Assembly (NCBI RefSeq): GCF_001536285.1
Contig: NZ_FAOZ01000052.1
Coordinates: 1-32,820 of the forward strand
Direction of reading: 5' to 3'
Source of the DNA: Parafrankia irregularis
GTDB lineage: Bacteria; Actinomycetota; Actinomycetes; Frankiales; Frankiaceae
DNA length: 32,820 nucleotides
In this document: positions 18,785 through 32,820 of the stretch, piece after piece
Position numbering within the stretch: position 1 is the first letter of the stretch
How the letters are laid out: the number at the start of each line of letters is the position of its first letter
Notes under the pieces: model-generated
Databases searched by the model: none
Seen by the model: only the letters and a program-made list of their open reading frames with translations
What the model was told of the DNA's origin: nothing
Program-made: the position numbers and the translations under genes

Positions 18785-18924
18785 ACGGGCGCCAGCCCAT
18801 CGTGCTGGCGCTGGACGGCACCGCCCTTCCTTGCGCTCGACCACGATCCGCGGAATCCGATCGCAGCCTGAGCACCGCGATCAGATGCGTGAAAGCTGGC
18901 CCTGCCGGCGGGCTAGGGGAAGTT

Positions 18925-19009
18925 GCCACGGAATCCGGAGCCGGCAAGCCTCGGCCTTCGGCCGACCCCTACGGGGCTAAAGGGCTGGCCAGCTCCGGTC
19001 TTCCGTGGC
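18925..19009 (+). repeat. Structured element, copy 1 (upstream of the ssb-comM-dprA operon)
   Basis: The outer stem GCCACGGAA (18925-18933) pairs with TTCCGTGGC (19001-19009). Next CCGGAGC (18935-18941) pairs with GCTCCGG (18992-18998). Two inner hairpins follow: TCGGCC-TTC-GGCCGA (18951-18965) and CCCC-TAC-GGGG (18966-18976). A second copy is at 27612-27699. The stems differ between copies by paired changes, which argues for selection on structure. It ends 111 bases before the ATG at 19121. Transcribed leader RNA, single-strand promoter and DNA cruciform are all possible; the strand is assigned from the downstream gene. Confidence 0.75.
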
Positions 19010-19120
19010 TTCAGAACATCACGCCCGCCCGGCAGGACCAGCAGATTCCACGGCCATCTGCTCTGCCGCGGCGGGCACCTTAGACCCTCGGAAACAGTCA
19101 ATAGCCACGAAGGGTTCACG

Positions 19121-19534
19121 ATGCGGACCGATCCTCTTCTTGAGAATCCGGCCAGTTCGTCACTCGATCCCCACCTCGAAAACTGCAACTTGATCATTCG
19201 TGCTGATACCGACGGTACTCCGGAAATCGTCTGTCCCCAGTGTATGACGAGTGCCGCACTCGTTCACCAGGAGTGGGTCTACACCGTCCGCGACGTCGTG
19301 CATCCGAAGCTACAGCGAGTGGATGATCAGGCTGGAACCCTGTGGTTCATCACCGTTTCCCTGGATGGGAGCCTCGAAGGCGAGAGCAGTCTCAGCTCCC
19401 GCTCCATGGCGCCGTTCTTGTGCCGATCCTGCGGCAAAGGATACGGCCTTCCCGATGATGTCCACGTCACCGTCCCGTACTCCGTCGTTATCGACTCGAT
19501 TTCACCCGGCCAGATCGTGGAAATCACACACTGA
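19121..19534 (+). CDS. Hypothetical protein with two Cys pairs (zinc-ribbon-like)
   Basis: The 137-residue protein has CPQC near residue 39 and CRSC near residue 104, which could form one zinc ribbon around a beta-rich insert (TLWFITVSLDGSLEGESS). After the second pair comes KGYGLPDDVHVTVPYSVVI. No family is recognised. ATG 19121 follows GAAGG about nine bases upstream; the frame extends upstream but crosses the structured element and is unlikely to be coding there. It is the first gene of the run with ssb (18 bases later), an unknown gene, comM and dprA. Codons here end in A or T more often than those of genes before 18.7 kb. Confidence 0.6.
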   Translation: MRTDPLLENPASSSLDPHLENCNLIIRADTDGTPEIVCPQCMTSAALVHQEWVYTVRDVVHPKLQRVDDQAGTLWFITVSLDGSLEGESSLSSRSMAPFLCRSCGKGYGLPDDVHVTVPYSVVIDSISPGQIVEITH

Positions 19535-19552
19535 TTCGATGAGGAGAAGTTC

Positions 19553-19999
19553 ATGCCTGGGGAGACGCTGATTACCGTGGTCGGAAATTTGACCGCGGAC
19601 CCGGAGCTACGATACACACCGAATGGAACGGCTGTCGCCAACATCACGGTCGCCTCGACTCCTCGGTTTCTGGACCGTACCACCAATGAATGGAGGGACG
19701 GAGACCCGCTCTTCATGCGATGCACCCTCTGGCGTCAAGCGGCGGAGAACGTCGCTGAATCGCTTTCTAAGGGTGCTCGAGTGATCGCTGTGGGCCGGCT
19801 CAAGCAACGCACGTACGAGACCCGCGAGGGGGAAAAGCGTACCACAATTGAACTGGAAGTCGAGGAGCTTGGACCCTCCCTACGATTCGCCGTTGCCCAG
19901 ACCTTCAAGAACACTCGTGGTACAGGAGCAGCGAAGCCGGTGTCGGCCGATCAGGATCCGTGGGCCGCACCGGTGGCCGTTGGAGCCGGCAGCTATTGA
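19553..19999 (+). CDS. ssb: Single-stranded DNA-binding protein
   Basis: The 148-residue OB-fold SSB begins [20 protein letters not shown], followed by [12 protein letters not shown], then the conserved [19 protein letters not shown] and [17 protein letters not shown], and [21 protein letters not shown]. It coats single-stranded DNA as an oligomer. The C-terminal tail is short and ends [16 protein letters not shown], without the acidic DxxxF tip through which chromosomal SSBs recruit partners. This marks it as an accessory, element-borne SSB. GAGGAG lies eight bases before the ATG. It precedes comM and dprA, so the operon as a whole seems directed to incoming or transferred single strands. 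Confidence 0.92.
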
Positions 20000-20071
20000 T
20001 CCGAGAAATCTTTCCGCAATCACCTACCGGCTCGCGGGCGCCATCCAACCCACTCCAGCCATGGAGCCATC

Positions 20072-20515
20072 ATGCGGATACAGCTCGATTTCAGCCAATA
20101 TTACACGTTGAAACATTGCCTGGCGTTCCTCCGGTTTCTACCAATCCGGACCAAGCGTTCCCAGCGCGAGCGGACGCGAGAGCTGTTCCTCGATGCCCGC
20201 GACGCGTGGCGAGGTGCCCTGGAAGACGAAATAGAGACCGAAACTCGGGCGATCTTCCCCGCTGCGGCTTACCTGGACGTCGAAGTTTACAACGACGAAC
20301 TCGGTGGCCCTCGCGGTCGACTCATCGCCGTCAATACCGATGCCGGGGCTGCCGCGGACGATCACCATGCGATCAATGAGATTCTCGCCGACCTCCTCAA
20401 CGACTGGGCGACTACCGCCAATGTCGACAGTACGAAGATCTACTTCTCCATGCTGCCTGACCTGGGGCAACCGGCAAAAATGAAGGGGCTCTCGTGGGTC
20501 ATGCGCGCGCTCTAA
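20072..20515 (+). CDS. Hypothetical protein between ssb and comM (147 aa)
   Basis: No family is recognised. The N-terminus is hydrophobic and basic (MRIQLDFSQYYTLKHCLAFLRFLPIRTKRSQRER split over a helix), and a central acidic helix follows (GALEDEIETETRAIFPAAA), then a beta-rich segment (YLDVEVYNDELGG, RGRLIAVNTDAG) and a helical end (HAINEILADLLNDWATTA). There is no signal peptide cleavage pattern. It overlaps the comM start by 22 bases, so coupling is likely, and its function is probably tied to the ssb/comM/dprA set. Confidence 0.6.
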   Translation: MRIQLDFSQYYTLKHCLAFLRFLPIRTKRSQRERTRELFLDARDAWRGALEDEIETETRAIFPAAAYLDVEVYNDELGGPRGRLIAVNTDAGAAADDHHAINEILADLLNDWATTANVDSTKIYFSMLPDLGQPAKMKGLSWVMRAL

Positions 20516-22032
20516 CTGTCACCCTTCTCGGTATCGATGGAAAGCTCCTCGAAGTAGAAGCGGAAACCGGCACCGGGAAACCATCGATGGGTCTGATCGG
20601 TCTACCGGAGTCGGACGGGAACGAGATGCGAGACCGAACCCGTGCCGCCGTCATAAACTCAGGTTTTCAATGGCCGGATGCGCGTATTACGGTCGGCCTT
20701 TTTCCTGCGACCCTGCCGAAATTCGGATCGGCGTTCGACGTCGCGATCGCCGCAGCAATCCTAGCCTCTGCCGGCCAGGTGCCAACCAGCTCGCTCTCCG
20801 GTCGTGTGTTGCTCGGCGAACTAGCTCTCGATGGGCGGATCCGCCCCGTCAGTGGCGTTCTTCCCGCGGTCCAAGCCGCAGTGGAGGCCGGATTCCTCCG
20901 AGTCGTCGTGCCTTCCGCGAATGCTTCAGAAGCCGCTCTCGTGTCGGGCGTCGTTGTCGAACCCGTTCCCGACCTGCGTCACGTTATAGATCTGCTGCGA
21001 GGTGATCGTCTACCATTGCCAGTCGAACCTATCGATCTAGTACCTGCGACCTCGCTCGAAAGCGGTCACGATCTGGCCAACATAACCTGGCGCACTCCGG
21101 GACGACAGGCGGTCGAAATTGCCGCTGCCGGCGGACACCATCTTTTTCTCCAGGGACCTCATGGTACTGGAAAGGTCATGCTTGCAGAGAGCATCCCAGG
21201 GCTTCTTCCTCCCTTGGAGGAAGCTACAAGCCTTGAAGTGACAGCAATCCACTCAGCCGCTGGCCTGCTGTCAGCCAACAGCCCAGTAGTCACCCGGCCG
21301 CCTTACCGCAGCCCGCATCACAGCGCAACACCCGCCGGCCTCCTCGGCGCTGGCCGCTCCGTGCTTCGCCCAGGTCTCATGAGCCAGGCGCATCGCGGTG
21401 TGTTGTTCCTCAACGACGCTCCCGAATTTGGCCGACCGAGCCTGGATATACTGCGCCACTCACTGGAAACAGGCCTTGTCGGGATTGCCAGAGGCTCCGC
21501 AACGATCAAGTTCCCGGCACGCTTCATACTCGTGCTCGCCGCCAAACCATGTCCCTGCTCCCAGACGCGTGACAATAATAGCGAAAGCGAAATCTGCACC
21601 TGTCCGGCCCAGATAAAACGCCGATACCTTGCACGCCTCGGGACGCTGCTTGACCGCATCGATATCAAGGTCGAACTCCCGCAGCTGACCCCCGCCGACC
21701 TACGGGCAAGCCACGACCCCGTCGAGTCAACAGCCGTGGTCGCCGCTCGGGTTGCCCGTGCACGCGAAGCGATGGCTCTTCGCCTGCGTGGCACGCCCTG
21801 GCGGATTAACTCCGAAATACCCGCGCACGTGCTGGAGCGGCAATGGCCGCTGTCCACCGCAGTCCGGCAGGAAGCGGAACGGCTCTATGAGATCGGCGCA
21901 CTCACCAGGCGAGGAGTAAACCGGGTCTTCCGGCTCGCATGGACTCTCGCCGACCTGGCAGACATCGACAGGCCCGGACCCGACCAGATAAAGCAGGCTA
22001 TCGCGCTTCAGATTCCAGGACGGCCGGCATGA
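20494..22032 (+). CDS. comM: ComM/YifB-like Mg-chelatase-fold ATPase with degenerate Walker motifs
   Basis: This homologue of ComM, the branch-migration helicase that extends joint molecules in natural transformation, has the usual three parts: an N-terminal Lon-S5-like fold (residues 1-170, LLGELALDGRIRPVSGVLPA), an AAA+ core, and a C-terminal helical domain (MALRLRGTPWRINSEIP). Its 512-aa length is normal. The Zn-site-like AAKPCPCSQ ... CTCPAQIKRRY and LLDRIDI are kept. Walker A reads GPHGTGKVM (Thr to Val) and Walker B reads LFLNDAPEF where LFLDEAPEF is expected, so both acidic positions are changed. ATP hydrolysis is doubtful. The GTG at 20494 overlaps the previous gene and has AAGGGG before it. 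Confidence 0.88.
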   Translation: MGHARALTVTLLGIDGKLLEVEAETGTGKPSMGLIGLPESDGNEMRDRTRAAVINSGFQWPDARITVGLFPATLPKFGSAFDVAIAAAILASAGQVPTSSLSGRVLLGELALDGRIRPVSGVLPAVQAAVEAGFLRVVVPSANASEAALVSGVVVEPVPDLRHVIDLLRGDRLPLPVEPIDLVPATSLESGHDLANITWRTPGRQAVEIAAAGGHHLFLQGPHGTGKVMLAESIPGLLPPLEEATSLEVTAIHSAAGLLSANSPVVTRPPYRSPHHSATPAGLLGAGRSVLRPGLMSQAHRGVLFLNDAPEFGRPSLDILRHSLETGLVGIARGSATIKFPARFILVLAAKPCPCSQTRDNNSESEICTCPAQIKRRYLARLGTLLDRIDIKVELPQLTPADLRASHDPVESTAVVAARVARAREAMALRLRGTPWRINSEIPAHVLERQWPLSTAVRQEAERLYEIGALTRRGVNRVFRLAWTLADLADIDRPGPDQIKQAIALQIPGRPA

Positions 22033-22973
22033 TCGCACCCGTGCCGCCCTCCAGTTCCCCGAACACCACCGACGTCACCGACAGGCTGGCCCGCGCGGCT
22101 TTGTCTCGAATCCTCCGCCCGGATGATCCCCATACCATCGCGCTGGTACGCCGGCACGGTGCAGCTGAAATCTGGGAAAGACTCCGCCACGACCATCCTC
22201 GTCTTGACCCCCGCCGCGACTTGGACGAAGCCGAGAGAGTCGGTGGTCGGATTATCTGTCCCGGTGACAACGAATGGCCCGCCTCTCTACTCGCACTCGA
22301 CCAAGTCAACCACACCGGACCACAGCCTGCTCCTGGGCCACCATTGGCCTTGTGGGTGCGAGGAGCCGAAAGCCTTTCCGCCGCCAGGCGTGCTGTCGCA
22401 GTCGTCGGCGCCCGCGCTGCTACCGACTATGGCAAATACCTAGCCGGCGACCTCGGCGTCGCGCTCGCTGAGCGGAAGTGGTGCGTGATATCCGGTGCCG
22501 CCTTCGGAATCGATGCTGCCGCGCACCGAGGATCCCTCGCAGGCGGAGGTCCGACCTTCGCCGTCTTGGCCGGTGGCATCGATGTCCCCTACCCAGCCGC
22601 GCATGCCGAGCTCCTCGACGAGATCGCCCACCGTGGCGCTCTGATCAGCGAGGCACCCCCGGGAAGCCCGCCGTATCGTCGGCGCCTCCTCGCGCGAAAC
22701 CGAATCATCACAGCCCTCGCCCGCGGGACCGTGATCGTCGAGGCCGGCTACCGCAGCGGCGCGCTCAACGCCGCTCGGCATGCCCGTGAACTCTCCAAAC
22801 CCCTGATGGTGTTTCCTGGTCCGGTTACGAGCGCTATGAGCGCTGGATGCCACCGCCTCCTGCGAGACCATCCTGAGAACACCACCCTGGTGACTGGGGT
22901 CGATGATGTTCTCCAGGCACTCGGTCTTCCCAGGCCAAGCAGCCAATCAACGGGGCCGCACGCCAGGGCATGA
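22029..22973 (+). CDS. dprA: DprA-like DNA-processing protein
   Basis: The 314-residue Rossmann-like DprA homologue binds single-stranded DNA and loads RecA in transformation. Visible motifs are VAVVGARAATDYGKYLAGDL, VISGAAFGIDAAAHRGSL, FAVLAGGIDVPYPAAHAEL, LLARNRIITALARGTVIVEA, and MVFPGPVTSAMSAGCHRLL. The first reads GAR in place of GSR. ATG 22029 overlaps the comM stop (ATGA), and the longer open frame is not needed. comM and dprA occur side by side in actinobacterial chromosomes too; here they are attached to an accessory ssb, which suggests a copy carried by the element to process its own single strands or to protect them. Confidence 0.88.
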   Translation: MIAPVPPSSSPNTTDVTDRLARAALSRILRPDDPHTIALVRRHGAAEIWERLRHDHPRLDPRRDLDEAERVGGRIICPGDNEWPASLLALDQVNHTGPQPAPGPPLALWVRGAESLSAARRAVAVVGARAATDYGKYLAGDLGVALAERKWCVISGAAFGIDAAAHRGSLAGGGPTFAVLAGGIDVPYPAAHAELLDEIAHRGALISEAPPGSPPYRRRLLARNRIITALARGTVIVEAGYRSGALNAARHARELSKPLMVFPGPVTSAMSAGCHRLLRDHPENTTLVTGVDDVLQALGLPRPSSQSTGPHARA

Positions 22974-23072
22974 CTGATCTGATTGGTGCCTGTATCTCAT
23001 TCCCCGCCATCCCGGTCCCACGCCCTCTGGAGGACGTTGGTCGGCCCGCGCTACTAATCGAAAGGAGACGCC

Positions 23073-23849
23073 TTGGAGGTTCAGGTCCGCGTTGCGCGGA
23101 ACAGGCTGTCAGTCGACACACAGTGGACAATTACTCGAATCCTCGACAGCCTTCGGCTGGCAGACGCTCCCGCGCTGGCCAGCGTGCTGCGACTGACTGG
23201 CCGGTCCGGAGGTCACAACATTGACGCCAGCCTGTACGTTGCCGACGCACTGACCAAGATTGACAGGGAGGACGTGGCGCCCGAAACCGTGGATGGCCCG
23301 GCCCACCTGGATGACGCCGACGGGTTGCGAGGGCTGGAGAAGCTCGGCTACCTCACAGTGCACGATCTTGCCTACGAGACGTCCAGCGCCAGCTACCTCG
23401 ACGAGGGCCGCAGCCTGACCGCGATCCGGGTTCTCCGGCCGTTCCACACCGTCGGTGTCGTCTACCGGTGGCGGCGCGCACTGATCGGCCCGGCCGACGA
23501 GTGGGACATCGTCACCCAGCCCGGGGTGATCTGGCCCGGTGTGTACGTGCACGGCGCGGTCGGAGACTACCGATCGCGCGACGTCGGGCTGGTGTACGCC
23601 GGCCCGCCCGAGCTGGACACTGACGCGCTGATCTACGCCATCCGCGAGGACTCCGACGTCTTCACCTGCCACGCCGTGTGCGATCGCTGCGGCGCCGACT
23701 GGTACGCCCATGACGGATCGTGGATCTTCCGAGCCATCCGGGCACACGCCGACTTCGACTACAGCGACGCGCGCCGTCATGACGGCACCACGGTGATGTG
23801 TCCGGAGCCGCTGTGCGTGGCCGGCAGGGTCGGCTTCGTCGTCGGCTGA
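23073..23849 (+). CDS. Hypothetical protein with CxxC motif (258 aa)
   Basis: The TTG start at 23073 is supported by AAAGGAG five bases upstream. No family is recognised. The N-terminal part is helical (QWTITRILDSLRLADAPAL). The middle is strand-rich and aromatic (LTAIRVLRPFHTVGVVYRW, GVIWPGVYVHGAVGDYRS). The C-terminal part holds CHAVCDRCGADWYAHDGSWI and, 30 residues on, CPEPLCV, which could make one zinc site. It starts 99 bases after dprA, and third-position GC returns to high values inside the gene. It may be the first of a run of small unknown genes ending at 25293. Confidence 0.65.
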   Translation: MEVQVRVARNRLSVDTQWTITRILDSLRLADAPALASVLRLTGRSGGHNIDASLYVADALTKIDREDVAPETVDGPAHLDDADGLRGLEKLGYLTVHDLAYETSSASYLDEGRSLTAIRVLRPFHTVGVVYRWRRALIGPADEWDIVTQPGVIWPGVYVHGAVGDYRSRDVGLVYAGPPELDTDALIYAIREDSDVFTCHAVCDRCGADWYAHDGSWIFRAIRAHADFDYSDARRHDGTTVMCPEPLCVAGRVGFVVG

Positions 23850-23936
23850 CAGCCCCGGCCGACGCCCCGCTCGTTGCCGGCCGGGTAACCGGCCCGCGCA
23901 TTTCCCCCATCCACTGAAGGAAGGCGGCACCGCCGC

Positions 23937-23972
23937 ATGCCCGAGAACATTGCACAGAGGACGTATCCCTGA
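23937..23972 (+). CDS. Possible 11-codon leader ORF
   Basis: ATG 23937 begins an 11-codon frame (MPENIAQRTYP) with GAAGGAAGG about 11 bases upstream, and its TGA overlaps the ATG of the next gene as TGATG. The next gene itself has only a weak site (AGAGGA, far away), so translation may arrive by termination and re-initiation. Chance cannot be excluded for so short a frame. Confidence 0.3.
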   Translation: MPENIAQRTYP

Positions 23973-24583
23973 TGGCAGACAGCACCGCCGGCGAGACATC
24001 TCCGGTCGCACAGGACGACCCGGCCGCGACCGCATGGAACGCAGAGACGGAGCGGCTCTACGGCCAGCTCACCGAACTCAAGCGGCTGTACGTGGCCGCG
24101 CAGCTGGGCCTGGTCGGGCATCTGATCCGCACCTTCGAGTCGACCGACACGAACGGGCTCGCGATGAGTACGGCCGAAGCGACGAAGGTGGAGATCACGG
24201 TTCGTAGCGGGGACGCCGACTATGATCCGTCGGTCACCCTGAACGCGGTTCTCGCCGCGGACGGGTCGGAGATCGCTTCCTGGGTCGACCGGCCCGGGGT
24301 GGCCGACCTCACCGGGTTGGACGAGCTGGTCTGCGGGCCGTTGGAGGCCTGCATTGCCAACGGGATGCAGGTCCCGAGTGGCGGTGAGGTAGAGCTGCCC
24401 CCGCCGGGGTTGCCGGACCCGGCGATGCCGCCCGGGGACGACCCGGCGATCCCCGCCCTGTGGGAGCGAATCAAGAAAATCGAGGAGCGGGAAGGGTACT
24501 GGAACGGCGGGGACGTCGCCAGCGCGCTGATGGAGTGGTTCGCGGAGCTCGGCTACCGCGTCGACGAGCCGGAAGCGCGGTGA
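23972..24583 (+). CDS. Hypothetical protein (203 aa)
   Basis: No family is recognised. The first 20 residues are polar, then a helix (ERLYGQLTELKRLYVAAQLG) leads to a beta-rich middle with KVEITVRSGDADYDPSVTLN and a Pro-rich, acidic linker (PPPGLPDPAMPPGDDPAIP), and the end is helical (WERIKKIEEREGYWNGGDVA). The composition is acidic. It overlaps the 237-aa gene by four bases (GTGA), so they are coupled. It might be translated after the 11-codon leader described separately. Confidence 0.65.
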   Translation: MADSTAGETSPVAQDDPAATAWNAETERLYGQLTELKRLYVAAQLGLVGHLIRTFESTDTNGLAMSTAEATKVEITVRSGDADYDPSVTLNAVLAADGSEIASWVDRPGVADLTGLDELVCGPLEACIANGMQVPSGGEVELPPPGLPDPAMPPGDDPAIPALWERIKKIEEREGYWNGGDVASALMEWFAELGYRVDEPEAR

Positions 24584-25293
24584 GCGCCGTTCGTGATCAC
24601 GATGTGGTGACGTCCGCTCCCTGGAGCGGGGTGCAGTGGGCCTGCCGGACCTGCGACCGGTGGGGGTACACCGCCACTGTGGCTGAGGCGCATGCCCACC
24701 ACGACGAACTCGTCGCGGTGGCCGCCGGCCGGGGCTGGTGGACCACGGAGCAGCTTGCGCGGGCCGCGGCGAACCGGCACTTCCGGTACGTCTCCCTGTG
24801 GCTCGGCGAGGTGACTACCCCGAACCTGGCCCGGATGCGACATCGCGGGCAGAGCGAGACCGCGATCGTCGACGAGCTGCTCGCGTTGTCGACGGCCGCC
24901 GACGGATGGGACGGCGAGGCCACGTGGGAGGAAGCGTGGGAGATGTGGGCCGAGGTACATCGGCGGGGCCCTGCTCAGGCGGCGCGACCGCTGCCGACCA
25001 GCCGGTCGCTCGCCGCGGTGCTGGTCGCGAAGAGTCGGGGCTGGTCCGTCGCAGAGGTCGCGGCGCATCGTGCCGCGAACGCACGGCACCGCAAGTCAGT
25101 CCGCCGTTGGCACACCGCCGATCAGATCACGATGGATATTCACCGGATCGCATCGCGGGGCGACTCTCCCGCGCAGCAGATCGCAGACTTGTTCCTCCTG
25201 GGCACCAACCTTGACGGTTGGGCCGGGGAGCAGCACCACGAGGACGCCTGGGAGCAGTTCGCTCGCAGGCTGCCAGTACGACGCACCCAGTAG
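24580..25293 (+). CDS. Hypothetical protein with N-terminal Cys-His motif (237 aa)
   Basis: GTG 24580 overlaps the previous stop as GTGA, which decides this start over upstream frames. Near the N-terminus WACRTCDRWGYTATVAEAHA followed by HHDEL is a CxxC ... H pattern like a small zinc finger. The rest is helical with two similar blocks (TTEQLARAAANRHFRYVSLW and TADQITMDIHRIASRGDSPA) and repeated W-x2-A-W elements near DGWDGEATWEEAWEMWAEV and DGWAGEQHHEDAWEQFARR. This internal similarity points to duplication. A DNA-binding role is possible from the finger, but unproven. Confidence 0.65.
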   Translation: MSAVRDHDVVTSAPWSGVQWACRTCDRWGYTATVAEAHAHHDELVAVAAGRGWWTTEQLARAAANRHFRYVSLWLGEVTTPNLARMRHRGQSETAIVDELLALSTAADGWDGEATWEEAWEMWAEVHRRGPAQAARPLPTSRSLAAVLVAKSRGWSVAEVAAHRAANARHRKSVRRWHTADQITMDIHRIASRGDSPAQQIADLFLLGTNLDGWAGEQHHEDAWEQFARRLPVRRTQ

Positions 25294-25299
25294 CCGCGG

Positions 25300-25775
25300 T
25301 CCCCGGTTAGATTCGAAGCCGGCCCGCGCCATCGTTCGTGAGGTTCGCCCAGCGCCATGCGTCGTCGCGGGGCGGATCCAGCATCGTTTCTCCATGTGCT
25401 CGGCGGGGCCGGCGAATTCGCCCTCGATGAGCTTCGCGAATGTCGATGCCTGTCGGATCACGTGGTGACCGGGGGCGCCGGTCGTGATGGCGGCCAATGC
25501 CTTGAACCCCATCCACACGCCCGATGTGGTGTCGCCCAGGAGAACGGTGTAGCCACCGACCGCCGGCGGTTTGCGTCGAGTCCGCCACACCCAGCCAGCG
25601 GGCGCGCCGCTCACGTACTGGGCATGGTGTGCACCCTGACCTTCGTCCTCGCCGAGCGGAGCGGTGATCCCGACTTTGCGAGGAGCTCGCTGCGTGAGTC
25701 CGCGGCGACCTGCTTCGCCTCACCGGGGACCGACCACTTCCAAGCCACCAGCTGACGCTTCCAGTTCCCATGCAC
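25300..25775 (-). pseudogene. Frameshifted remnant of a minus-strand gene
   Basis: The stretch has no intact gene on either strand. On the minus strand, a frame from GTG 25775 encodes HGNWKRQLVAWKWSVPGEAK and AADSRSELLAKSG. Near 25650 the coding pattern moves to another frame with GITAPLGEDEGQGAHHAQYV, VGGYTVLLGDTTSGVWMGFK and ASTFAKLIEGEFAG. Codon use stays GC3-rich in the chosen frames. Past about 25300 the frame runs on into the end of the convergent gene, so the true stop seems lost. A sequencing error at the shift is the alternative to a dead gene. The family is not recognised. Confidence 0.4.
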
Positions 25776-25801
25776 GCGACCACCCGAGCAAGGCAGGCCC
25801 C

Positions 25802-26215
25802 ATGATCATCGACCCGTCCGTGCTCCCGACCGCCGACGAGGCCGACCTCAACTCGGCACTGTCTGCGATCAATGCTGAACTCCGCCGCCGGATCACCAGC
25901 GACGACGGACTCTTCTCCTTGGTCCGCCGGACCTGGCTGAACGCAGTCGCAGTGCTATGCGACGTCGACTGGGACGACTACCCCACCGCATCGGCCGAAG
26001 GCATCCTGCTCGCAGACAACACCACGATCGACGTCGACGCTGCCAGCGCCCCGGACGACTGGGACGTGATCCGTGATGAGGTCGCGAACCTCGCCGCCGT
26101 TGATGGCGTCATCAGCGCCGACCAAGAGCACGGCTACCTGATCCGCTTCCGCACTTCGCCCGCCGCGGTCTCAGCGCCAGTCCTTCCCCCGGACTCCGAT
26201 GCCGCCGGGCGCTGA
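25802..26215 (+). CDS. Hypothetical acidic protein (137 aa)
   Basis: No family is recognised. The first helix-rich half (PTADEADLNSALSAINAELR, then SLVRRTWLNAVAVLCDVDWD) and a central acidic segment (NTTIDVDAASAPDDWDVIRD) suggest a small soluble protein; the end is Ser/Pro-rich. ATG 25802 follows AAGGCAGG by a few bases. It is separated from its neighbours by over 200 bases downstream. In the same frame after its TGA, another 65 codons stay open to 26413 (see findings). Confidence 0.6.
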   Translation: MIIDPSVLPTADEADLNSALSAINAELRRRITSDDGLFSLVRRTWLNAVAVLCDVDWDDYPTASAEGILLADNTTIDVDAASAPDDWDVIRDEVANLAAVDGVISADQEHGYLIRFRTSPAAVSAPVLPPDSDAAGR

Positions 26216-26452
26216 CTGTGGACCGCCCACCTCCGACCGCCAGGTGACTCGTGCGACGGCCGAACCCGCACGAACTGGGGCGACCTGTTGCCTGACCGGG
26301 GCAGCTCATCGACCGACCACATCTCCCTTGGCACCGACCTACTGCTGGCCCCGCTGACCCGCAACCACGCGACTTTCCGTTCACGGGAACAGGCAGAAAC
26401 GCCCAACACATGACCGCACCTCACATTCACGAAAAGCTCCGAAGGAGCCAAA

Positions 26453-26986
26453 TTGGACCGCGCCCGAGGAATCCCTGACTTGATGCGCTCACTTCCCATC
26501 GATCGACGTCGAGGGCTACCTATTCCGGCGTCCACGGCACGTTATCCGGACGGAGAACCGAAGTTCTCCCTCGTCGATGGACGTGAAGCATTGTGCCTCG
26601 CAGTTGAAGGTCGCTGCGGCATTTGTGGAAATCGTTTGGACGCCGTGGTCGCGTTTCTCGGCGCACCGGAGGCAACGGCAACGCATGTTTATCACGACCC
26701 TCCAATGCATGAACAGTGCGCCGAGGCTTCCACAAAATTGTGCCCACATCTCGCGCACCGCGATATGCGCCGTGTAGCCGATCGTCGCTCTGCCGAGACG
26801 CCGTCAGCGAATAACACCAACGAGAAGCCAGACCGGTGGGTGATGTGGATCTGCCGAGGCTTTGCCGCGGACGTCGTCGACGGAATACCAATCTTCCTGC
26901 CGACACCCTACATCCGGCTGCGCACCTTCACCTACACCGACGACGGGCACCTCCACGAATCACCCGACATGTCCCCGCGGGCCTGA
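26453..26986 (+). CDS. Zinc-finger-like protein of actinobacterial mobile elements (177 aa)
   Basis: TTG 26453 has AAGGAG six bases upstream, and no ATG or GTG is better placed. The protein contains GRCGICGNRLDAVVAFLGAP, then YHDPPMHEQCAEASTKLCPH, making a C-x2-C ... H ... C ... C pattern with the DPPMHxxCA block. I recall this combination from hypothetical proteins of actinobacterial phages and plasmids; the function is unknown to me. The last 45 residues (WVMWICRGFAADVVDGIPIF) may be a second small beta unit. It is followed 38 bases later by the 148-aa gene. Confidence 0.7.
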   Translation: MDRARGIPDLMRSLPIDRRRGLPIPASTARYPDGEPKFSLVDGREALCLAVEGRCGICGNRLDAVVAFLGAPEATATHVYHDPPMHEQCAEASTKLCPHLAHRDMRRVADRRSAETPSANNTNEKPDRWVMWICRGFAADVVDGIPIFLPTPYIRLRTFTYTDDGHLHESPDMSPRA

Positions 26987-27024
26987 TCCGGGCCGCGAGA
27001 CGACAAGGAAAAGGAGCGGCGGCG

Positions 27025-27471
27025 ATGAGCCTCATCACCGAACGCGAACCGACGCTGCTGGTCAACGACGCCGACCGGCGGCTGACCTACCGGTGGGTCG
27101 TGCGGCGGGTCGACGAGGACACCGACCCGGCGACGCTGGTCGTCAACCTGAAGATCCGCCACCACGGGACGAGTAAGGAGTACTACGCCGAGCTGCGCAA
27201 CGAGACCGAGACCGACCGGGGCATCGGGATCGAGAAGTTCGGTTGGAACGATCCGGTGTGGCACCGCCGCCAGCCCGTGGCCCGCTACTCCCGCAAGAGC
27301 CTGCGGACCTTCGGCGAGCAGACCCTCGCCGCGCTGCGCCAGGCCGACATCAGCGGCCAACCGCTCCATGTCGATCTGACCGACATATCGCCGGCCGGCG
27401 ACTCAAGCGACGCACCGCGTCAGCCACGATCCGCTGGACCGGCCGCGTCGAGAGACCGCACTCACCGCTGA
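27025..27471 (+). CDS. Hypothetical protein (148 aa)
   Basis: ATG 27025 is preceded by AAGGAG eight bases upstream. No family is recognised. The N-terminal 100 residues are strand-rich and charged, with LTYRWVVRRVDEDTDPATLV, KIRHHGTSKEYYAELRNETE, and EKFGWNDPVWHRRQPVARYS; the C-terminal part is disordered and basic (PRSAGPAASRDRTHR). It may be co-transcribed with the zinc-finger-like gene. The 357 bases beyond its stop hold the second structured element and no other gene that I can support. Confidence 0.6.
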   Translation: MSLITEREPTLLVNDADRRLTYRWVVRRVDEDTDPATLVVNLKIRHHGTSKEYYAELRNETETDRGIGIEKFGWNDPVWHRRQPVARYSRKSLRTFGEQTLAALRQADISGQPLHVDLTDISPAGDSSDAPRQPRSAGPAASRDRTHR

Positions 27472-27611
27472 CGGATTCGCCTCCACCTCAGAATCCTGTG
27501 TTGGCGAGCAACCTTCTATCCGCGGACGCGTCTCTCGGAATATTCCATTCTTCCACGGATCAACGCCAACAGGTCAGCGGTACGGCTTCCCGCCGGGCGA
27601 CTTCCAGGAAA

Positions 27612-27699
27612 CTGCCACAGAACCTTCGGGCCGGCAAGCCTCGGCCTGCGGCCGACCCCTTCGGGGCAAGAGCTTGCCGGCCCGAAGAACCTGTAGCAG
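27612..27699 (+). repeat. Structured element, copy 2 (upstream of the 118-aa gene and DUF932-parB)
   Basis: The outer stem CTGCCACAG (27612-27620) pairs with CTGTAGCAG (27691-27699) with one mismatch. A perfect 14-bp stem follows: TTCGGGCCGGCAAG (27625-27638) with CTTGCCGGCCCGAA (27673-27686). The inner hairpins are TCGGCC-TGC-GGCCGA (27641-27655) and CCCC-TTC-GGGG (27656-27666). Compared with copy 1 (18925-19009), several pairs change on both sides. After both copies a TCAG(G)AA and then CCGCCCGGC follow. It ends 129 bases before the ATG at 27829. Confidence 0.75.
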
Positions 27700-27828
27700 T
27701 CAGGAAAAGACCGCCCGGCGGAGAAGCCAGAGACCGCGGTACTGCAAAGCCAGGCGTTATCCCTCTTCGAGGTCTGAGGACAAATCGGGTCTATCATTTC
27801 GCGTGCTACGGAACCGGGAAAGGTGAAA

Positions 27829-28185
27829 ATGTACACCGTTGAAGTCAAGTCCAGTGACGGTCTGGCAAGAGTCGCTGACTGCTCGTTCGAAGCTGACGCG
27901 CTGAGTTTGTTGAGTGAAGGAATGCTAGCTCTCGCTTACTCCCGTGACCGTTGCGTTCACACGGCTATTACCGGCGGGGTGAGCATGACCGACGTGGATG
28001 GCGACGAACGGGTCCTGTTCGTCGGCGTGCTTCTGGTTAACCCATCGGTTGCGGAACATGACCCCGTCAGTCTGTTGGACCATCATTCACCGCGGCGCGG
28101 CGACCAGACCGAGGATCATAACCACAGCCGGGCACCTTGGCGCAGGTGGCTTCGCCGCCGCAAGACGGTGCCACTGCCATTCTGA
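27829..28185 (+). CDS. Hypothetical protein (118 aa) downstream of structured element
   Basis: No family is recognised. The compact first 90 residues read as a mixed alpha/beta fold (MYTVEVKSSDGLARVADCSF, SLLSEGMLALAYSRDRCVHT, RVLFVGVLLVNPSVAE), while the tail is basic (PWRRWLRRRKTVPLPF). ATG 27829 follows GGGAAAGG by six bases; an in-frame GTG at 27823 is the alternative. Third-position GC is lower than in the left half of the window and like that of the ssb operon. It precedes DUF932 by 56 bases and may share its leader. Confidence 0.65.
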   Translation: MYTVEVKSSDGLARVADCSFEADALSLLSEGMLALAYSRDRCVHTAITGGVSMTDVDGDERVLFVGVLLVNPSVAEHDPVSLLDHHSPRRGDQTEDHNHSRAPWRRWLRRRKTVPLPF

Positions 28186-28241: not shown

Positions 28242-29390
28242 ATGGCCGAGATTCGCAGCAGCAGCCCCACCCGCAACGCTGATCTCGAGGATCTCATCGC
28301 AGTCCTACGAGGCCATCATGCCCGAAAGGTCGATGTTGTAGCCCCCGTCACAACAATTCGAGCCGAGAATGGCCGGCTTGTCGTAACTGGAACCGAGCCG
28401 GTGCTCACCGACTCCGGTGTGACACTGGCAGACGGCGTTTATCTCCCCACCGCGGTCGCCGACGAGGGTCTCTCGGACAAGCTGGGTATTCCTCTCGCAT
28501 ACCTACGGCGACTGCGAACTGAGAATGTCACCCTGTACGACGAGAACATCAACAGTTGGCTCCGGCACGAAGCGAACTCTGGCCGACGTTTTCTCGTACG
28601 GACACTACGTAACGATGACGGTGGTCCCGGTGTCGCGCGGGCCGTGCTGAGTGACCGTTACAGGACAGTGGACCACCTCGACGTTCTGATGGCCGCACTC
28701 GACGGCGTGCACGCGGCCGGTGCTCCGGTTCAGATTGACGGCTGCGATCTCACCGACCGACGGATGTACGTCCGAGTTAGGAGCGAAGCTATTCGGGCAC
28801 TCGCCCCCACCCTCCTCGAAGGCTATCGATCCCCATTCAGTGGCGATCGCGGCGAAGAGAATCCAGTCGTCTGGGCCGGCTTCCAGATCACAAATTCGGA
28901 AACGGGTTGTGGCGCATTCACGATCAGCCCGCGACTCGTCATCGAAGTTTGCCGCAATGGTATGACCATCGCGAAGGATGCGTTGCGAGCAGTTCACCTC
29001 GGCGGCCGGCTAGAGCAGGATGGGGTGGTGCAGTGGAGCGCTGACACCCAGCGCAAGGCCATCGAGCTGATTACTGCTAAGGCCCGTGACGCGGTCACTA
29101 CCTTCCTTGACATCGACTACGTCAAGGCGCACATCGAACGGATCGAACGGAAGGCAACCAGGCCCATCGAGGACCCCGCCGCAACCGTTCAGCTCGTCAG
29201 CAAGCATCTGCAATACAGCGACGAACAGCAGGCCCTCATTCTACGGCACTTCATTCGAGGCGGCGATCCTACCGCTGGTGGGATCCTGAACGCGGTCACC
29301 AGCGCCGCGCAGACCCTCCCCGATGCGGACGTCGCCCATGATATGGAGGCTCAAGCGCTCCGCGCCATGGAAATCGCTGCGAGGACCTGA
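28242..29390 (+). CDS. DUF932 family protein
   Basis: The 382-residue protein has the DUF932 order: an early segment that positions a hydrophobic pocket (VTLADGVYLPTAVADEGLSD and IPLAYLRRL), a central RAVLSDRYRTVDHLDVL, PVVWAGFQITNSETGCGAFT, and VIEVCRNGMTIAKDALRAVH, followed by a helical C-terminus. DUF932 proteins are frequent on plasmids and phages, some in regions first entering a recipient; their biochemistry is unknown to me. AGAAGGA lies before the ATG at 28242. It is followed, after a hairpin at 29406-29434, by the ParB-like gene. Confidence 0.88.
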   Translation: MAEIRSSSPTRNADLEDLIAVLRGHHARKVDVVAPVTTIRAENGRLVVTGTEPVLTDSGVTLADGVYLPTAVADEGLSDKLGIPLAYLRRLRTENVTLYDENINSWLRHEANSGRRFLVRTLRNDDGGPGVARAVLSDRYRTVDHLDVLMAALDGVHAAGAPVQIDGCDLTDRRMYVRVRSEAIRALAPTLLEGYRSPFSGDRGEENPVVWAGFQITNSETGCGAFTISPRLVIEVCRNGMTIAKDALRAVHLGGRLEQDGVVQWSADTQRKAIELITAKARDAVTTFLDIDYVKAHIERIERKATRPIEDPAATVQLVSKHLQYSDEQQALILRHFIRGGDPTAGGILNAVTSAAQTLPDADVAHDMEAQALRAMEIAART

Positions 29391-29511: not shown

Positions 29512-31074
29512 ATGACGACGCCAACGCCGGCGGCACATGTCGATCTTCATGTTCAGCACCTCGATCCGCGAAGTCTCCTCCTGGATCGCAACCTACGGAG
29601 CAACGCCGACCTCGATCCCGACTTCCTCGCCAGCATCAAGGCCTGCGGCGTCCTCATTCCCATCATCGCCGTTGGAGCGCCTGACGGAATCCGAGTCCGC
29701 CACGGACACCGTCGCACCCTTGCGGCCGTCGCGGCTGGCCAATCCTCTGTCCCCGTGATAGTCATCGGGCCGGACAGCGACAGCCAGACCGCCGAGATCG
29801 AGAGAATCGTTAGCCAGTGGCACGAGAACGAGCACCGAACAGGCCTCCACAACCGCGATAAGGTAGCTGCGGTAGAACAGCTCACCTTGCTCGGTCTCTC
29901 CGCTACCAGCATTTCAAAGAAGACGAGGCTGCCGCGGGCCAAGGTGGACGCCGCTCTGACCGTGGCCCGTTCCGAGCTCGCCCGTCTGGCAAGCGAGAAA
30001 TACGACTTTCTCGATCTCACGCAGGCGGCGGTCGTCGCCGAATTCGAGGACGACGAGGAGGCTGTCAAGGCTCTCGTGGTCGCAGCGCGCGCCGGCGGAT
30101 TCGAGCACGTTGAACAACGTTGTCGGGACAACCGCGCCGAGAGGGAGGAGCGTTCCCGGGTTTCTGACCTCCTGAGTTCGCAAGGCACCCGTGTCATCGA
30201 CCGTCCAAGTCACACAGATCAGGCCAAGCGTCTATCCCAACTCGATCACGAGGACACCCCTCTCACCCCGGACAAGCACGCCAACTGCCCGGGCCACGCG
30301 GCCTATCTCATTCAGGTATACGAGCGGCAGCCAGAGACTCAAGCGCGAGACAGTGACGCCTCCCCTCCAGCGCAGCTTGTCTACCGCCCTGAGTACGTAT
30401 GCACCGACCCGGACGGCAACGGCCACGTTGACCGACACCGATTCCCGGCCGGCTCGACGACTGGTACCGGAGAGTCCGGTGGTGGTCTCTCCGAAGAGGA
30501 GAAGACGCAGCGCCGATGGGTGGTCGAGAACAACAAGGCCTGGCGCTCGGCCACCACAGTCCGGCGAACGTGGCTGCGTAACTTCCTCACCAGCCGCAAG
30601 ACTCCCCCGAAGGGGGCCTGTCGGTTCGCTGCGGATTCCGTCGCCTCGGGAAGCCACGAACTGCGCCGCGCCCTCGAACGTCGGCACCCAATCGCCCGTG
30701 AGGTTCTTGGCGGCAAGGACACGCCTCTCAGCGCCGATCAGCTCACCGAGCTGATCGATGCAGCGTCTGAGCCGCGAGCCCAGGTCCTGACTCTGGCCCT
30801 CATTCTCGCGGCCTACGAGGACGCCCTCGACGTGCATGTCTGGCGCCACCCCACCTCCACCGCACGGCGTTACCTGACCGCTCTGCAGTCCTGGGGATAC
30901 GAACTGGCCGAAGTCGAACTCCTCGTCACGGCGCCCCCCGGCAACTCCGATGACGAGCCGGCCGCCGGCGATGAAGCACACACGGACAGCAACCAGTCGC
31001 CCAATGGCGATCCAACCGCGACTCCAGGAGCGCAGGACCCCGCCGATGACGGGGCCCCGCGCTCGGACGCCTGA
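29512..31074 (+). CDS. ParB/Srx-like N-terminal domain protein (520 aa)
   Basis: The N-terminus has the ParB-N fold: LDPRSLLLDRNLR, then SIKACGVLIPIIAVG, and GIRVRHGHRRTLAAVAAGQS with the R-box (GHRR), the NTP-binding signature of ParB proteins. A helix-turn-helix region follows (LTLLGLSATSISKKTRLPRA). The remainder is long and low in similarity, with a block (CRFAADSVASGSHELRRALE) and a Pro/Asp/Ala-rich tail. At 520 aa it is longer than chromosomal ParB (about 300-330). No parA lies in the window, so plasmid partition as such is uncertain; a regulatory or DNA-processing ParB relative is an alternative. AAGGAGAG stands before the ATG at 29512. Confidence 0.85.
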   Translation: MTTPTPAAHVDLHVQHLDPRSLLLDRNLRSNADLDPDFLASIKACGVLIPIIAVGAPDGIRVRHGHRRTLAAVAAGQSSVPVIVIGPDSDSQTAEIERIVSQWHENEHRTGLHNRDKVAAVEQLTLLGLSATSISKKTRLPRAKVDAALTVARSELARLASEKYDFLDLTQAAVVAEFEDDEEAVKALVVAARAGGFEHVEQRCRDNRAEREERSRVSDLLSSQGTRVIDRPSHTDQAKRLSQLDHEDTPLTPDKHANCPGHAAYLIQVYERQPETQARDSDASPPAQLVYRPEYVCTDPDGNGHVDRHRFPAGSTTGTGESGGGLSEEEKTQRRWVVENNKAWRSATTVRRTWLRNFLTSRKTPPKGACRFAADSVASGSHELRRALERRHPIAREVLGGKDTPLSADQLTELIDAASEPRAQVLTLALILAAYEDALDVHVWRHPTSTARRYLTALQSWGYELAEVELLVTAPPGNSDDEPAAGDEAHTDSNQSPNGDPTATPGAQDPADDGAPRSDA

Positions 31075-31937: not shown

Positions 31938-32711
31938 ATGAGCCGCCCCCGAGACGGCTTCGGCCCGGTGCAGCTGGCCCGCTGGCTTGGCATCACAGAG
32001 CGGCAGCTGCGGCGAGCGCAGGACCGAGGCCTGATCCCCCCACCCGACAGGGACGATCATCGCTGGTCGGATCATGTGGCGAAGACCTTGCCGGACCAGG
32101 TCGAAATGATCATATCGAAGGTCGAGGCCCAGCCTGAACCTGAGCAGTCGGTCGACACCGAACCAGCACCACGCCGAAGTCGTGACGGCTTCGGTCCCGT
32201 ACAGCTGGCCCGGCAGCTAGACATCAAAGACTGGCAGTTGCGCCGCGCGCAGGACCGAGGGCTCATCCCGGCGCCCGACATCGACGAACGCAGATGGTCT
32301 GCAGCCGCCATCGAGTCGATCCCCGGCCGAGACACAATCCTTGCCGACGTTGGAGACCACCCCGGCATCGGATCGTCCAAGGCCGCCGAGTACCTGTCCG
32401 GACGTACAGGTCTGCAGATCGAGCGAGCAGACGTTCAGGCTCTCGCCGAGCGCGGTGCGCTTCGTCCAATCGGCGACTACAAGGGATGGTCTCTGTACGC
32501 CCTCGATGACCTGGACGCGCTGTCTCTTGACCTGCTCGTGACAGTCCTCGCCGACCGGCAGAGCTGGTTGCAGGCAAGCCTCACCAGCCCCGAGGCAGCC
32601 GACCTGTTGGGATGGTCCGTCGGCAGGTTCGAGGTCACCGCGGAACGTCAAGGCCTCACAGCCGGCAGATTCGGCCGCTATGCGCGCGTTGATGTTGAGC
32701 GGTTGAGGTAG
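31938..32711 (+). CDS. Tandem-HTH (MerR-like) protein with internal duplication
   Basis: The 257-residue protein begins with two copies of one HTH module: DGFGPVQLARWLGITERQLR with AQDRGLIPPP at residues 6-44, and DGFGPVQLARQLDIKDWQLR with AQDRGLIPAP about 75 residues later. Both end in a DxxxxRWS turn. At the DNA level the copies are also similar, so the duplication is recent. Two further HTH-like parts follow (SSKAAEYLSGRTGLQIERAD and SPEAADLLGWSVGRFEVTAE). A GGAGGAAGG sequence lies about ten bases before ATG 31938. Binding of direct repeats in DNA is a natural inference. It stands between the BldD-like gene and the repeat array at the window end. Confidence 0.75.
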   Translation: MSRPRDGFGPVQLARWLGITERQLRRAQDRGLIPPPDRDDHRWSDHVAKTLPDQVEMIISKVEAQPEPEQSVDTEPAPRRSRDGFGPVQLARQLDIKDWQLRRAQDRGLIPAPDIDERRWSAAAIESIPGRDTILADVGDHPGIGSSKAAEYLSGRTGLQIERADVQALAERGALRPIGDYKGWSLYALDDLDALSLDLLVTVLADRQSWLQASLTSPEAADLLGWSVGRFEVTAERQGLTAGRFGRYARVDVERLR

Positions 32712-32820
32712 CGCCGGCTGTCCCCCGCCGGCTGGCGCCGGCTGTCCCCTCGCGGGCTTCGCCCGGAGCGCGGCTGCGCCGCGGAGCGCCGGCTGGCGCC
32801 GGCTGTCCCCTCGCGGGCTT
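32711..32820. repeat. GC-rich direct-repeat array at the right edge (cut by the window)
   Basis: A 33-base unit beginning GCCGGCTGGCGCC occurs at 32727-32759 and again, identical, at 32788-32820, giving a period of 61 bases. GCGCCGGCTGTCCCC occurs three times (32711, 32735, 32796). The units contain small hairpins such as CGGGC-TTC-GCCCG and CGCGGC-TGC-GCCGCG. The array begins at the stop of the tandem-HTH gene and runs past the window end. Iterons, extragenic palindromic repeats or a termination region are all open. Confidence 0.65.

Follow-up and report, generated by a model that had tools for sequence, protein, structure and literature searches.

A covarying hairpin family of actinomycete mobile DNA whose members probably act as single-strand initiation sites

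The window, a stretch of 32,820 nt from Parafrankia irregularis (assembly GCF_001536285.1, contig NZ_FAOZ01000052.1, positions 1 to 32,820 of the forward strand), contained two intergenic, imperfect hairpins of approximately 132 nt (Table 1). Copy 1 was located ahead of an ssb-comM-dprA operon and copy 2 ahead of a DUF932-ParB operon. The two hairpins belong to a real, widespread and covarying family, and its members are probably single-strand initiation sites of mobile DNA, similar in kind to the single-strand origins (sso) of rolling-circle plasmids and to the single-strand initiation (ssi) and Frpo sites of F-like plasmids. Behind copy 1, the genes encoded, in this order, a 137-aa protein, a single-strand binding protein (SSB), a 147-aa protein, a ComM-type ChlI protein and DprA. 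Behind copy 2, they encoded a 118-aa protein, a DUF932-type protein, a ParB-like protein and a BldD-like regulator. The opposite end of the window carried an integrase. The labels SSB, ComM-type Mg_chelatase/ChlI and DprA, given in an original prediction for this DNA, were borne out by Pfam; the name ComM itself is one that we take over as presumably correct. The ParB-like label also held on the strength of its PHROG match, with the Pfam (E = 0.006) and NCBIfam scores below their cut-offs. The DUF932 label stood insofar as many plasmid homologues (approximately 50–57% identity) are annotated as 'DUF932 domain-containing protein', but the product had no Pfam match at E 0.01.

Table 1. Positions of the hairpin elements and of the genes behind them in the window
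Feature	Position	Strand	Evidence or remark
Element copy 1, whole hairpin	18902..19035	− (predicted folding strand; genes behind on +)	fold z −4.68; R3 match
Copy 1, small hairpin 1	18951..18965		loop C(UUCG)G on +, C(GAA)G on −
Copy 1, small hairpin 2	18966..18976		loop C(UACG)G on +, C(GTA)G on −
137-aa first gene behind copy 1	19121..19534	+	homologue behind G014 copy, 40.6% over 106 aa
SSB	19553..19999	+	PF00436, E 5.8e-30
ComM-type Mg_chelatase/ChlI protein	20494..22032	+	PF01078, E 2.4e-65
DprA (DNA_processg_A)	21939..22973	+	PF02481, E 5.2e-61
Element copy 2, whole hairpin	27590..27721	− (predicted folding strand)	fold z −7.96; R3 and R2 matches
Copy 2, small hairpin 1	27641..27655
Copy 2, small hairpin 2	27656..27666
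118-aa first gene behind copy 2	27829..28185	+	38% over 78 aa to gene behind Frankia AiPs1 copy
DUF932-type protein	28242..29390	+	phrog_1362, E 4.7e-96; plasmid homologues annotated DUF932
ParB-like protein	29512..31074	+	TIGR00180, E 2.5e-11 (NCBIfam, below its cut-off); phrog_6218, E 1.4e-57

Both copies shared one layout. Two small hairpins form the terminal core, which is carried by an inner stem; outward from this follow a small internal loop (in many copies AAC/AAC-like on the plus strand), another stem and, outermost, a GC stem. For either copy, none of 200 shuffles folded equally well. Two structured copies with a common core and with changes on both arms of the flanking stems had been predicted, and this was confirmed, the cores (18940-18982 and 27630-27672) being 91% identical over 43 nt. 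The predicted distances to the ATG (approximately 111 and 129 nt) were correct for the ends then assumed, but the elements proved to be longer, and by the revised ends the hairpins stop 85 nt (copy 1) and 107 nt (copy 2) before it. Rfam gave no match at the gathering score in the window, where a relaxed E-value yielded only matches far under the families' own thresholds, and tRNA was its sole match at six loci with copies of the second subfamily described below. The exact core had no match in viral contigs and was found in genome contigs at one locus, in Frankia sp. AiPs1.

A third copy was present in the same genome (G000:C47:43361-43497), and further copies of this subfamily (family 1) occurred in genomes G014, G015 and G020, which belong to the same family as the window genome. 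The G015 copy was the same in sequence as that of Frankia sp. AiPs1 over the stretch compared. A covariance model (R1) of the six distinct family-1 copies, whose alignment had double changes in 10 of 42 pairs, retrieved family-1 copies only from 393 Actinomycetes genomes at E 0.001. Three of the contigs with family-1 copies carried conjugation genes: C47 encoded a MobF/TrwC relaxase-helicase and a TraG-type protein, and those of G014 and G015 a TraG-type coupling protein upstream of the element and on the same strand. In G014, a DUF932 gene, a ParB-like gene and the homologue of the window's 137-aa gene stood together behind one element. A gene of approximately 455 codons (L041:17477-18838 and L042:8083-9462), 55% identical between two Frankiaceae elements and with no Pfam match, lay behind the coupling-protein module and was followed by the hairpin (after 201 and 997 nt) with no other called gene in between.

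A relaxed search with R1 turned up related hairpins of the same layout, ten of which (E 3e-5 to 0.6) formed an alignment (A3) that gave the model R2. At E 0.01, R2 had matches in 28 of the 393 genomes (24 Frankiaceae and four Streptomyces-like). A third model, R3, was built from this second subfamily (family 2) alone. R2 recovered copy 2 of the window (48.9 bits, E 3.7e-7) and the G020 copy (E 0.006), and R3 found all six family-1 copies (E 7.6e-8 to 0.021), with the minus strand scoring higher for each of them. The R3 scores were 37.7 bits (E 8e-4) on the minus strand against 24.3 bits on the plus strand for copy 1, and 62.3 bits (E 7.6e-8) against 35.1 bits for copy 2. The two subfamilies are thus linked by covariance models in both directions, if unevenly, and the search that started from the window copies led to a related subfamily in Frankiaceae and Streptomyces-like genomes and to Streptomyces plasmids.

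Covariation was measured on an alignment (A4) of 52 distinct family-2 copies, collapsed from 56, from Frankiaceae and Streptomyces-like genomes; the weak or half matches L136, L137 and the second match at L118 were excluded from this and the strand set. Compensatory double changes occurred in 26 of 36 pairs, and 94.9% of the cells were paired. The covariation score was 0.474 against 0.188 in shuffles, and none of 500 shuffles reached the observed value in any of five measures, with the qualification that the structure was predicted on the same alignment, which favours it somewhat. When partners were slid by one to three columns, pairing fell to 37–49%. None of 62 copies overlapped a gene called by our gene finder, which is simple and custom-made and misses or shortens some genes. 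A lack of significant covariation, named in the original prediction as a refuting outcome, was clearly not observed.

Plasmid records were searched with the two window copies or one Frankiaceae family-2 copy, which gave short matches to unrelated records, or none. A 468-nt leader block from a Streptomyces-like genome matched 26 plasmid records, and in 25 the match covered part of the element itself; 18 records were examined. R3 confirmed the element placed by BLAST at 14 of 16 plasmid loci (E 0.05). The corresponding leader block of G280 was 97% identical to a Streptomyces phaeochromogenes plasmid. The family is new in sequence by the tests made, and the titles and opening lines of abstracts in the open-access literature on leading regions, Frpo, pSAM2 and other actinomycete integrative and conjugative elements (AICEs), sti/pIJ101, sso and structured RNAs did not describe it; subscription papers mostly fell outside this scope. 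The part of a Frankia AICE paper that was examined (PMC3218068) did not mention the element, and the string 'palindrom' was absent from its text.

The strand that folds was identified from wobble pairs. Where the minus strand has a G-U (G-T) wobble, the plus strand has an A-C mismatch. In a strand-neutral structure, restricted to Watson-Crick columns, the minus strand of A4 had 130 GU against 12 AC cells, and 16 representatives at 80% identity had 29 against 5. The consensus energy calculated with RNAalifold for A4 was −65.3 on the minus and −17.6 on the plus strand, and even in the structure that suited the plus strand best, its letters still gave 6 GU and 30 AC. By minimum energy, the minus strand folded better in 51 of 52 family-2 copies with RNA parameters and in 49 with DNA parameters, compared with 181 and 172 of 304 control windows. 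The same was true for 27 (RNA) and 26 (DNA) of 28 distinct copies from named plasmids. These represent 28 of 32 places, three with a score equal to an included row and one 40-nt match having been left out. Together with the six family-1 copies they had 94 GU against 15 AC on the minus strand. The plasmid copies in this count were located with R3. Minus-strand copies had served to build this model, and the strand it prefers therefore depends in part on the alignment, unlike the strand-neutral counts. The folding strand is therefore the template strand of the genes that the plasmid copies precede, and not a sense RNA. We infer that single-stranded DNA (ssDNA) folds, rather than an RNA made from the minus strand.

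The elements held a fixed polarity to genes for replication and mobilization. RepSA (PF20199), the rolling-circle initiator of the pSAM2 type, was encoded within 20 kb of the element in 24 of 54 cases (family-2 matches with E up to 1.8e-7, weaker ones being left out). The nearest repSA was upstream and divergent in 23 of these 24, the exception being a short fragment; at G033:C174, a second repSA fragment lay farther off on the other strand, and the count used the nearer one. Among five genomes assembled in one contig, 12 of 17 elements had repSA within 20 kb, compared with 0.5 expected. Since the element is divergent from repSA, it folds on the sense strand of repSA, probably the displaced one, as is the rule in rolling-circle plasmids. 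On plasmids, the element was co-directional with mobC, mobF or a mobilization gene in all 12 tabulated loci, and in 10 of these it stood upstream of that gene. The rows of this tabulation are not independent (L149 and L156 are closely alike), and two of them, L151 (with approximate coordinates) and L154, rest on BLAST only. It omits L152 and L157 (no mob gene in the stretch examined), the AICEs L162 and L163, and NZ_CP108590.1 (no annotated relaxase). The origin of transfer (oriT) usually precedes the mob genes, with the leading region on its other side; given this layout, co-directionality with the mob genes would make the folding strand the transferred strand.

The genes behind the elements included those for SSB, ArdC, DNA methyltransferases, HsdM, ParB-like and DUF932 proteins. 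In plasmid-type copies with a co-directional gene, the gap to that gene was 77–369 nt by the gene finder. An 83.5-kb contig, G280:C7, had nine copies in one direction and one reversed; eight of the nine were 179–231 nt ahead of a called gene and the ninth, at the end of the stretch examined, preceded an ArdC-type gene. Among the genes behind them were those for ParB-like, ArdC-type, DUF3560 and methyltransferase-like proteins, and a similar run on the S. phaeochromogenes plasmid carried the names ArdC family, ParB N-terminal, DUF3560 and methyltransferase. HsdM was encoded 253 nt behind the element in G210, and a G342 gene at 245 nt shared its first 25 residues. C5 methyltransferase genes followed elements on LN997845.1 and on NZ_CP108572.1, where the element was placed by BLAST only. 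DUF932-type homologues outside the hairpin family (G103, G225, G256) had a ParB-like gene nearby at two loci and an SSB gene at one, and R3 found no convincing element in the stretches examined there (best E 0.6). Leading regions with Frpo sites are described, in the part of Samuel et al. (PMC11541004) consulted, as holding SSB, anti-restriction and methyltransferase genes.

Annotations of C5 DNA methyltransferases recurred close behind the element at L148, L151 and L157, all Streptomyces plasmids, and many unnamed neighbours at these loci are candidate anti-defence genes. On the MOBP plasmid of L154 (NZ_CP109386.1), a type I-E CRISPR-Cas operon was found within 12 kb of the element. A transposase-like gene, recognised by eye, stood behind the Frankiaceae family-2 copies at L066 (2702-3229), L103 and L113. 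The leaders of the G280:C7 array (L098/L099) shared approximately 470 nt, including a palindrome similar to GTGATC-AGATCAC, which is a candidate operator for a GntR-type regulator encoded on the same contig.

If the elements are single-strand initiation sites, transfer by a relaxase and type IV secretion system (T4SS), or rolling-circle replication, would leave one strand single-stranded, and the site on it would fold into the long imperfect hairpin and be recognised by host RNA polymerase or primase. Synthesis would then run from the hairpin across the neighbouring DNA, with a primer or a transcript as its product. In relaxase plasmids, where the sites lie ahead of early ('leading-region') operons, the operon genes could be transcribed directly from ssDNA, or the adjacent promoter and gene could be made double-stranded at once. 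The single-strand origin of RepSA elements would be supplied by this family as well.

Several observations weigh against this interpretation. For family 1 alone, a weak test, the minus strand folded better in five of six copies with RNA parameters and in three with DNA parameters, and UNCG was the plus-strand sequence in 11 of the 12 small loops of this subfamily, equivalent to C(GNA)G triloops on the minus strand. UNCG loops stabilise RNA, and C(GNA)G triloops are stable in DNA. With the energies undecided and UNCG on the plus strand, the window copies take their strand mainly by homology, and the evidence for these two alone is modest. R2 left four of the six family-1 copies, including copy 1, unlisted at E 0.01, and its whole-genome search listed neither window copy. 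No mobile genes were recognised within reach of the G020 copy. Over all called copies, the next downstream gene was co-directional in 28 and convergent in 32, two copies being without a downstream gene call. Co-directional genes followed five of six family-1, 11 of 13 Streptomyces-like and 12 of 41 Frankiaceae family-2 copies, the other 29 of which faced a convergent gene. A position between convergent genes, unlinked to ssb, DUF932 or ParB operons, was thus common among Frankiaceae family-2 copies but not among plasmid copies; a role as single-strand origin suits these convergent copies better. Reversed copies also occurred, one in the G280 array, one of nine in NZ_CP108590.1 and one of three in NZ_CP107959.1 (L147, outside the mob tabulation, where the other two were co-directional with mobC). 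The folding strand probably corresponds to the transferred or displaced strand by conventions on layout rather than by a mapped strand.

The promoter question bears on the same interpretation. Inside the hairpin, the best match to the −35/−10 consensus, searched as canonical boxes only, was no better than in shuffles on both strands and in both subfamilies, so that a canonical promoter in the hairpin is not supported. Between element and gene, the ordinary promoter score in 27 leaders was 7.59 of 12, compared with 7.12 in shuffles; two MOBP leaders carried TTGACC-17-TTGAAT behind the element, and the G280 palindrome may be an ordinary operator. Because −35/−10 boxes were absent from the hairpin and promoter- or operator-like sequences were present in some leaders behind it, we consider priming with local duplex formation at least as likely as direct transcription from ssDNA. 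The idea of a Frpo-type promoter, put forward in the original prediction, was partly supported, with strong help from the overwhelming covariation of family 2, folding of the template strand and leading-region-type genes on mob plasmids in mob orientation, but a reconstituted −35/−10 was not recovered. A more tentative possibility is that one family of hairpin sites serves two modes of transfer in Actinomycetes. It would act as the single-strand origin in rolling-circle AICEs, and in T4SS plasmids as many copies ahead of anti-defence and SSB operons, each starting a primer whose extension makes the operon and its ordinary promoter duplex right after entry. What sets the time of early expression would in that case be local synthesis of the second strand, not an ssDNA promoter in itself.

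Four other explanations were weighed. An antisense or stand-alone non-coding RNA made from the minus strand would fold on the observed strand, with G-U wobbles as expected of RNA, but it would be antisense to the genes behind the element on plasmids and yet run with repSA in AICEs. Such opposite gene relations leave no single transcription logic, and the polarity tracks mobility genes, so that an RNA of this kind appears unlikely. A double-stranded site, such as an operator, a cruciform or a partition site for a plasmid ParB- or GntR-type protein with ordinary repressed promoters behind it (zygotic induction), is improbable. GntR-type genes near copies at 10 of the 47 family-2 loci searched, the GTGATCCAGATCAC-like palindrome of the conserved G280 leader and the TTGACC-17-TTGAAT of the two MOBP leaders are consistent with it, but it gives no reason for strand-asymmetric wobbles, and the promoter-like scores behind the elements barely exceeded those of shuffles on average. 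Since the operator lies outside the hairpin, a duplex site may be an addition to a single-strand initiation site rather than a rival.

A leader RNA on the sense strand of the early operons, acting as riboregulator, attenuator or protein-binding site, seems quite improbable, and the new leader-RNA class offered in the original prediction was disfavoured by the strand test. The gaps of 77–369 nt to a co-directional gene in plasmid-type copies, and of 85 and 107 nt in the window, would suit a leader, as would the UNCG loops of the window subfamily, and part of the study of pLS20 (PMC8708921) argues that its EGeRS1 regions, structured and ahead of establishment genes, are not ssDNA promoters. The mismatches on the plus strand (130 vs 12, and 94 vs 15 in the plasmid and window-type set), its consensus energy of −17.6 against −65.3 and the convergent gene behind 29 of 41 Frankiaceae family-2 copies argue against it; as the principal explanation a leader RNA was rejected by the strand tests, and it is kept as a rival. 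A single-strand recombination or transposition site (an attC-, REP/RAYT- or IS200-like hairpin) is very improbable: hairpins read by HUH or tyrosine enzymes do fold as ssDNA, some ten copies stood in one array with repeated blocks (G280) and a DDE-transposase-like gene followed at least three Frankiaceae copies, but the copies hold a fixed polarity to mobility genes, several of the repeated blocks stop at the start codon of the next gene, which suits duplicated leaders, and the transposase-like neighbour was noticed only at L066, L103 and L113.

The preferred reading, a single-strand initiation site, was compared with known systems by description. Like the Frpo and ssi sites of F-like plasmids, as far as the parts of the sources consulted describe them, the family consists of imperfect hairpins on the template strand that stand repeatedly in front of leading-region operons carrying ssb, anti-restriction and methyltransferase genes; in most tabulated plasmids the genes also run toward the mob genes. 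Unlike those sites, it is GC-rich, was found in Actinomycetes, is also present beside repSA of rolling-circle AICEs and showed no canonical −35/−10. The F Frpo is reportedly both promoter and primer site according to Masai and Arai, by the title of their paper. An in vivo role of Frpo1/2 is the subject of PMC9849209, in the part seen. The sso of rolling-circle plasmids and of ICEBs1, the latter orientation-specific according to the portion of PMC4595007 consulted, are likewise stem-loops, and they act as ssDNA in one orientation; the present family stands beside a rolling-circle initiator, RepSA, in fixed polarity; it differs in occurring in multiple copies ahead of individual plasmid operons. 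The STAXI motif (PMC2864571, in part) is also a conserved structure near SSB, integrase and anti-restriction genes with UUCG loops, for which the question of RNA or ssDNA was left open there; it is a repeated pseudoknot, whereas the present family had no Rfam match and a folding strand that could be tested. EGeRS1 of pLS20 plasmids shares the repeated structured leaders ahead of establishment genes, including ArdC, but is approximately 600 bp long, and in the part of PMC8708921 consulted its transferred strand is the non-template strand and an ssDNA promoter was judged unlikely; in the present family, it is the template strand that folds.

A conjugative element has to produce its SSB and anti-restriction functions no later than the moment at which its single strand turns duplex, and to our knowledge little is known of how Gram-positive high-GC bacteria manage early expression on entry. 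The present family, with its covariance support and computed folding strand, offers direct access to this question. It would mark probable leading regions and oriT sides and predict the transferred strand, point to candidate anti-defence genes among the mostly unnamed genes behind each plasmid copy, and provide AICEs with a candidate single-strand origin. The comparison of wobbles with mismatches by strand is reusable to separate RNA, ssDNA and duplex sites.

Some further features of the window were observed. The genes for the ComM-type protein and DprA (20494-22973) stood in one run with ssb behind a mobile-element leader; such genes are usually chromosomal and have functions in natural transformation, and the run is possibly an ssDNA-processing set for incoming DNA. 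The contig ended in a 34-nt direct repeat without mismatches (32726-32759 and 32787-32820), which possibly reflects an assembly break at a repeat. Within a MerR-like gene, a stretch of 119 nt was duplicated (31950-32068 and 32181-32299, 77% alike). The MerR-like product was related to the N-terminal part of a 614-aa protein encoded on C47, which there has an exonuclease domain at its C-terminus.

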